Assembly (NCBI RefSeq): GCF_000708205.1
Contig: NW_014575561.1
Location: forward strand, 194,299-258,298
DNA from: Mixia osmundae IAM 14324
Taxonomy: Eukaryota > Basidiomycota > Mixiomycetes > Mixiales > Mixiaceae
DNA length: 64,000 nt
Reading direction: 5' to 3'
Positions 51,477-52,723 of the stretch are shown in pieces. Numbering within the stretch: position 1 is the stretch's first letter; every line of letters begins with the position of its first letter. Under the pieces are notes generated by a model. That model ran no database searches. It had not been told where the DNA came from and saw only the letters and a program-made list of their open reading frames with translations. The translations under genes and the position numbers were made by a program.

Positions 51477-52723
51477 TCAAAGATCGGCACGCAGAGGGAT
51501 CTGATTGGTTTCGCCGCTGTCGACGACGGCTTCTTCAGGCTCTGCGTCTGAAGGCAGCTCTCCGCTTTTGGCGATGACAATCTTCTCCAGTGGGCTGCAC
51601 AGGGACTCGTGTCAGCGAGGATGTATGCACAGAACCTAGAAGCGCATACCGATCGCGGCCATCCTTGGACGTGTTCTCGACTGCGGTGACGACGTCCATT
51701 CCCTCAATGACTCGGCCGAAGACGACTGCAAGCGTACAAGCGCATCAAAGGTACGCTCGTAGAGAGTGTGAAGATGCACTTGCCATGCTTGCCATCTCTG
51801 TGGACAGCGTCAGCGCATAGTATACAGCATTGAGTGTCACTCACAGCCAAGATGTCGTGACGGTAGTGATGAAAAACTGAACTTGTGTCAGACACAGGCA
51901 CTTGAGGTGCATGCTACAGGCTCACTTGTGAGCCGTTGGTGTCCTTGCCTGTGCTCAGTCGTCAGCGCGATCGCAAGCGCCGGAATGTCAGAATGCATAC
52001 CCGAGTTGGCCATTGAGAGTACGCCCGGGCCAGTGTGACGCCTGCGGTGCTATCCCTAGTCAGACGATGGTCGCAACGAGTCGGGATACGACTGACAGCT
52101 TGAAGTTCTCGTCGGGGAACTTGTTACCATAGATACTCTTGCCGCCCGTGCCGTCAAAGTTGGTAAAGTCACCTCCCCTGCAAGTGACGTCAGCTTGCAA
52201 TGAGTGCATCAGCGCAAAACCTTACTGGATCATGAACTGCTTGATCACACGAGTGCAGATCTGTGGGGTATGAGCAACTGAGCCTACATGAGCTGGCGAT
52301 GACTTATTGAAAGATGGACCCCTCGCTGTTCGTGCCTCTCGATAGTAAGCCCCCCAGTCATAGCAGATCAGAAAGTACGTACTATCCATAGCCCTTCTCG
52401 CCGGTCGCGAGCGCTCTGAAGTTCTCAGCGGTCTGCCGGACAGTTCAGTGAGTGAGCGCCAATGATGCTCGCTGGCTAGACATCCGACCTTGGGGACTGT
52501 CTTGCCATACAGTCCGATGACGATGCGACCCAGATCCTTGTCGCCTTGCTTGATGTCGAAGAAGACTCTGTAGCGTGGCCACAGGAATGAGGTGATGCTC
52601 CAGGAACAAGCGCACGAGAGCGTACTTGCTGGTAATTTTGGGGCCTTTCTGAGCTGCAGTCTGGCTTGTTGCAAGCAGCACTGTGCCGAGAGCGAGGAGG
52701 ATGGTGCTGAACGTGAGCCTCAT
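51477..52723 (-). CDS. Secretory-pathway cyclophilin (peptidyl-prolyl isomerase B type)
   Basis: Twelve exons on the minus strand (52723-52626, 52567-52489, 52432-52383, 52325-52308, 52252-52226, 52177-52097, 52041-52001, 51948-51926, 51876-51845, 51797-51784, 51725-51650, 51594-51477) give 218 aa. A signal peptide ([20 protein letters not shown]) leads into [100 protein letters not shown], the complete cyclophilin core with the catalytic Arg and Trp. The C-terminus (IPLRADL) lacks a canonical HDEL-type signal. Two junctions are non-canonical: 52253-52307 must be an AT-AC intron, and 51726-51783 has a GC donor (CATG then GCAAGT). Exons of 14 and 18 nt occur. The enzyme assists folding of secreted proteins. 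Confidence 0.93.
52253..52307 (-). other. AT-AC intron in the cyclophilin gene
   Basis: The exon before ends TTTCA and the intron begins ATAAGTC at 52307 (minus strand). It ends CTGCAC at 52253, after which the exon resumes TCGTGTG. Joining gives CAT CGT GTG, that is His-Arg-Val of the invariant FHRV segment. Length is 55 nt, the local norm. No GT donor works, because the unspliced frame meets a TAA immediately. The donor ATAAGT resembles a U2-type GTAAGT with G1 changed to A, not the U12-type ATATCC. Confidence 0.8.

Follow-up and report, generated by a model that had tools for sequence, protein, structure and literature searches.

In the fern-dwelling fungus Mixia osmundae, the gene for cyclophilin B very probably contains a genuine spliceosomal AT-AC intron that would be removed by the major (U2) spliceosome, a reading to which we assign a probability of roughly 0.9. 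Cyclophilin B is a peptidyl-prolyl isomerase of the secretory pathway. The gene is encoded within the window, by which we mean the whole stretch of 64,000 nucleotides that was analysed. Its eleven introns are each between 47 and 58 nt long, nine of them having GT-AG, one GC-AG, and one AT-AC ends. The features needed for the argument are the following:

51477..52723, minus strand: complete coding region (12 exons, 218 aa) for the peptidyl-prolyl isomerase of cyclophilin B type, corresponding to NCBI L969DRAFT_338716
52326..52382, minus strand: intron 3, GT-AG, 57 nt
52308..52325, minus strand: exon 4, 18 nt, with the last Tyr base, EGSIF, and the first two His bases
52253..52307, minus strand: intron 4, putative AT-AC, 55 nt, phase 2, donor ATAAGT and acceptor CTGCAC
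52226..52252, minus strand: exon 5, 27 nt, with the last His base, RVIKQFMI, and the first two Gln bases
52178..52225, minus strand: intron 5, GT-AG, 48 nt
51726..51783, minus strand: intron 10, GC-AG, 58 nt (GCAAGT...TTGCAG), product identical to the public protein

Read along the minus strand, the segment ATAAGT...CTGCAC extends over 55 nt from 52307 to 52253 and is located between ...TTTCA and TCGTGTG..., exactly as the first-pass annotation had described it. The coordinates given there are also right, while the strand had been left unstated and is the minus strand. Without splicing the frame reads TTT CAA TAA and ends at a stop codon, and the immediate termination that had been noted is thus found. 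Removal of exactly the 55 nt gives TTT CAT CGT GTG, which encodes Phe-His-Arg-Val, and the joined sequence is TTTCATCGTG. The catalytic Arg is restored in this way, as had been proposed, and all 118 homologs have the Phe, the His, and the Arg without exception. The observation on the AT-AC segment is therefore confirmed in that, judged from the sequence, the removal of these 55 nt would be needed for the conserved product.

The predicted protein is an ordinary cyclophilin B. It matches Pfam PF00160 with 174.2 bits over residues 36-190, its best match in the PDB is cyclophilin B (E 1e-83), and the Phe, His, and Arg of the active site are complete once the transcript is spliced. NCBIfam gave matches below the cut-offs only, and an uninformative plasmid search with the gene returned no match. 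It is the gene structure alone that is unusual. The gene also has two tiny exons of 14 nt (51784-51797) and 18 nt (52308-52325) on the minus strand; internal exons of at most 18 nt account for 12 of the 369 predicted in a 264-kb sample.

To rank the possible joins, a homolog profile of 118 of the 120 listed homologs was used, from which P0001, which is L969DRAFT_338716 itself, and P0012 were omitted. Possible splicings were enumerated in a region of 336 nt that runs from exon 3 to exon 6, while the remaining exons were kept as they are. Allowing a maximum of three introns, each 38-200 nt long and with GT-AG or GC-AG ends, resulted in 15,587 in-frame proteins, and the addition of products in which intron 4 could have any end pair, introns 3 and 5 being fixed, brought the total to 15,878. 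The AT-AC join is at the top of all 15,878 products with 371.4 bits against the 118-homolog profile, and the runner-up among the any-pair joins, TA-CT, reaches 366.3 bits. Using GT-AG and GC-AG introns only, the best product scores 342.1 bits, 29 below the AT-AC join, and has lost the Phe and the His, which agrees with the earlier statement that there is no workable GT or GC donor. These scores also bear on the idea that a different GT-AG or GC-AG splicing, or retention, yields the real product and that the public protein was merely fitted to the family by homology. A gene finder restricted to GT and GC donors did locate an open path around the site. However, even the best product of this kind would lack two active-site residues that are invariant in the homologs, and we regard this explanation as very unlikely.

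The spliced protein is identical in 218 of 218 residues to the NCBI entry 'uncharacterized protein L969DRAFT_338716 [Mixia osmundae IAM 14324]'. Therefore, the product of the AT-AC junction is already listed in the public databases. Of the 120 best matches in a protein search with residues 120-218, many of them without an organism label, no other is named Mixia. The case for the AT-AC intron rests on homology and on this public protein; splicing in the cell, the spliceosome responsible, and the ancestry of the intron are inferred. Concerning the possibility of a sequence or assembly error, in which the true intron is GT-AG and both AT and AC have been miscalled, it has to be considered that one assembly is behind the sequence and that the public protein seemingly derives from the same contig. 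However, this would require two independent and exactly compensating errors, one at each end of the intron, because a single error would have resulted in AT-AG or GT-AC, and the remaining ten introns of the gene are all GT-AG or GC-AG. An error of this kind is hard to imagine and in our view has only a few chances in a hundred.

The splice signals were compared with those of 431 predicted GT-AG introns from 264 kb of contig C3, which holds the window. At the positions outside bases 1-2 the donor ATAAGT scores at the 75th percentile of these introns with a position weight matrix, so that the first-pass annotation was well founded in calling it U2-like and not U12. The length of 55 nt is near the sample median of 52 nt. 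There are two branch candidates, both CTCAT. The nearer one, with its A 17 nt before the 3' end (sample median 15 nt), scores 4.23, between the 25th percentile (4.03) and the median (5.07), and the other, with its A 35 nt before the 3' end, scores 4.41, at the 35th percentile. The predicted branch site is a modest and acceptable match, not a strong one. An AG is present 8 nt upstream of the intron end and could be a competing acceptor. Apart from A as first and C as last base, the splice signals would thus appear ordinary for the Mixia genome.

In U12-type introns, the branch motif TCCTTRAC is expected shortly before the 3' end. If intron 4 were a U12-type AT-AC intron removed by the minor spliceosome, the terminal dinucleotides would be the only feature in its favour within the intron itself. 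The donor is ATAAGTCA and not ATATCCTT, and thus differs from RTATCCTT, and a good TCCTTAAC-like branch is missing: the three best matches to TCCTTRAC have 3-4 mismatches in 8 positions and are all located in the first 24 nt of the intron, with no such branch near the 3' end. In the whole 13.5-Mb genome the pattern RTATCCTT..TCCTTRAC has 1 match compared to 0 in the reversed control. A U6 gene with the ACAGAGA box is present in the genome (80.3 bits). Genes for U6atac, U12, U4atac, and U11 were not found among the best first-look candidates, which alone were scored, with prokaryotic control genomes. The U1 snRNA must exist in the genome, and it was also missed by the Rfam U1 model (41 of 250 first-look candidates scored). 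Therefore, the negative results for the minor snRNAs count for little and leave some room for a U12-type intron. The U1 snRNA itself may be diverged, which possibly bears on the donors.

Cutaneotrichosporon oleaginosum is, like Mixia, a basidiomycete. The report of U12 RNA genes in this fungus (PMC7072748) and that of a U12 AT-AC intron in the peptidyl-prolyl isomerase genes of Phytophthora (PMC2846911) would be in line with the U12 type. In contrast, U12 introns are reported as absent in Basidiomycota by the same survey that describes the Phytophthora genes (PMC2846911). Based on the sequence signals and this reported absence, the intron is most likely of the U2 type, and its removal by a minor spliceosome seems highly improbable.

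AT-AC introns of the U2 type have been described before and are sometimes called 'AT-AC II'. The Mixia intron resembles them in its AT and AC ends, in the major-type donor with AAGT at +3 to +6, and in the CTNAY-like branch candidate. No feature was found that would distinguish it from them; the Mixia case belongs to a short-intron fungal gene and is flanked by exons of 18 and 27 nt. Concerning the mechanism, it is a known rule that the first and the last base of an intron contact each other in step 2 and that A-C may substitute for G-G, and by this rule the A and C pair would be functional where either change alone would fail. Parker and Siliciano (1993) are said to be the source for A-C replacing G-G at intron ends. 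That A-C is able to do so is described for human introns and for yeast double mutants (PMC8283771).

As ancestor of the Mixia intron, a GT-AG intron that has been altered at both ends is most likely. A common intron position with a cyclophilin paralog (contig C1, locus L005, 1295-1347) was considered and rejected: the GT-AG intron of the paralog splits the Arg codon and is 3 nt away. A further comparison is possible with Phakopsora pachyrhizi, which belongs to the same fungal subphylum as Mixia. A U4atac candidate has been reported in this species, and together with the AT-AC introns in the peptidyl-prolyl isomerase genes of Phytophthora (both PMC2846911) it might indicate that the Mixia intron is what remains of an old AT-AC intron of the U12 type, later taken over by the major spliceosome with its ends unchanged. 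However, the origin from a GT-AG intron requires two base changes only, and we give little credence to such a relic.

Few fungal introns have AT-AC ends. Their share is given as 0.019%, and that of GC-AG introns as 1.009%, in a study covering 2,302,340 splice pairs from fungi (PMC7072748). In Caenorhabditis elegans 59 AT-AC introns outside U12 splicing were called, of which at least 42 were judged real (PMC3033335), and the EST survey of Phakopsora pachyrhizi lists 2 'other AT-AC', 10 GC-AG, and about 560 GT-AG introns (PMC2846911 Table 2). Like the Mixia intron, the AT-AC introns of these two species do not fit the U12 type. They are known from transcript data, whereas the Mixia case is derived from protein conservation and the public protein record. 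In titles and abstract openings, the literature search gave nothing on splice sites of Mixia osmundae. Neither PMC7072748 nor PMC10639083 mentions Mixia in its main text, and the search gave no paper joining an AT-AC intron with a cyclophilin gene and no match to the exact phrase 'U2-type AT-AC introns'.

The gene finder was trained on the 264 kb of contig C3 (1-190000 and 194299-268298), which include the window. With GT and GC donors only, its prediction was exact for 8 of the 12 cyclophilin exons, and exons 2-5 around the AT-AC intron were mis-spliced. With AT-AC allowed beside GT-AG and GC-AG, it gave the protein of 218 aa with 11 introns and with exactly this AT-AC intron. The earlier expectation that standard gene finders would miss or truncate the gene thus applies to a finder of the first kind, but not to the public record, which has the exact 218 aa. 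Adding AT-AC improved the total score by 5.6 nats through two introns. The gains of 35 decoy pairs were between 0 and 6.6 nats, the decoy AC-AC being better than AT-AC (6.6 compared to 5.6 nats). Because the gain for AT-AC is within the range of the decoys, coding statistics alone do not prove the AT-AC intron. When all 256 end pairs were allowed equally, AT-AC was chosen nowhere in the two complete listings, at priors of 0.0005 and 0.0001.

The second AT-AC call, at about 113.6 kb of contig C3 in a gene that by eye is predicted to encode an Fpg-type DNA glycosylase, was rejected in favour of a GC-AG reading. The GC-AG product (...VDGSTAPITFETIGGRTT...) reads more naturally, yet the finder scored it with 89.05 compared to 92.39 for AT-AC, and the AT-AC reading was thus dropped on judgement and against the score of the finder. 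In the whole genome the pattern ATAAGT..CTRAC..CAC is found 31 times compared to 44 times in the reversed control, where it should be noted that the pattern demands CTRAC and that the cyclophilin AT-AC intron itself has CTCAT. Among the 20 places inspected of 28 distinct ones, none has a strong coding signal in the same phase on both sides, in a flank test that is blunt and also weak for the 18- and 27-nt exons of the cyclophilin gene. Judged by the weaker side, the best of the 20 is L031 with 3.1 and 13.3 nats. In conclusion, we see no second convincing AT-AC intron in the 264 kb and no sizeable genome-wide class of the form ATAAGT..CTRAC..CAC.

If the main reading is right, the cyclophilin B gene would provide a clean natural example of A-C replacing G-G at the two termini of an intron of the major class, and this in a member of a phylum from which U12 introns are reportedly absent. 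It belongs to a rare but known kind of intron and does not open a new class. A wrong join would destroy the active site of the enzyme, and the case is therefore easily tested. It also shows where ab initio gene prediction may go wrong, even though the public protein is correct in this case.

With intron 10, the cyclophilin B gene has a second non-GT intron, and GC-AG introns look unusually common in Mixia. At a prior of 0.01 the gene finder predicted 50 GC-AG introns beside 433 GT-AG introns, compared to 5-16 (mean 10.9) for 14 decoy donors combined with AG. Net of the decoys, GC-AG introns thus make up about 8% of the predicted introns in the 264-kb sample compared to about 1% reported for fungi (PMC7072748), but GC-AG was permitted when the models were trained, which may bias them towards it. 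With all pairs competing, 19 of 518 introns are GC-AG at a prior of 0.002 and 9 of 471 at 0.0001, and GC-AG is the commonest non-GT type at both priors. Besides cyclophilin intron 10, three predicted GC-AG introns are located inside well-aligned domains. Two of them belong to aspartate-semialdehyde dehydrogenase and have junctions without alignment gap, and the third, in a DEAD-box helicase, has a one-residue gap four residues from the junction. It could be imagined that Mixia is relaxed at the first two donor bases, as several per cent of GC-AG introns might suggest, and that the AT-AC intron, a double switch of G to A and G to C maintained in a conserved cyclophilin gene, is the extreme of a genome-wide loosening and not a lone oddity, but we consider this rather doubtful.

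In the whole genome, GCAAGT..CTRAC..CAG is found 566 times compared to 217 in the reversed control, and GTAAGT..CTRAC..CAG 203 times compared to 174. The excess of the former is partly due to the word itself, because GCAAGT is commoner than GTAAGT (219 compared to 50 in the sample). GTAAGT is the usual strong donor elsewhere. In the Mixia sample it is rare, being used by 13 of 424 GT-AG introns, and the leading donors are GTCAGT (40), GTGCGT (32), and GTGAGT (29).
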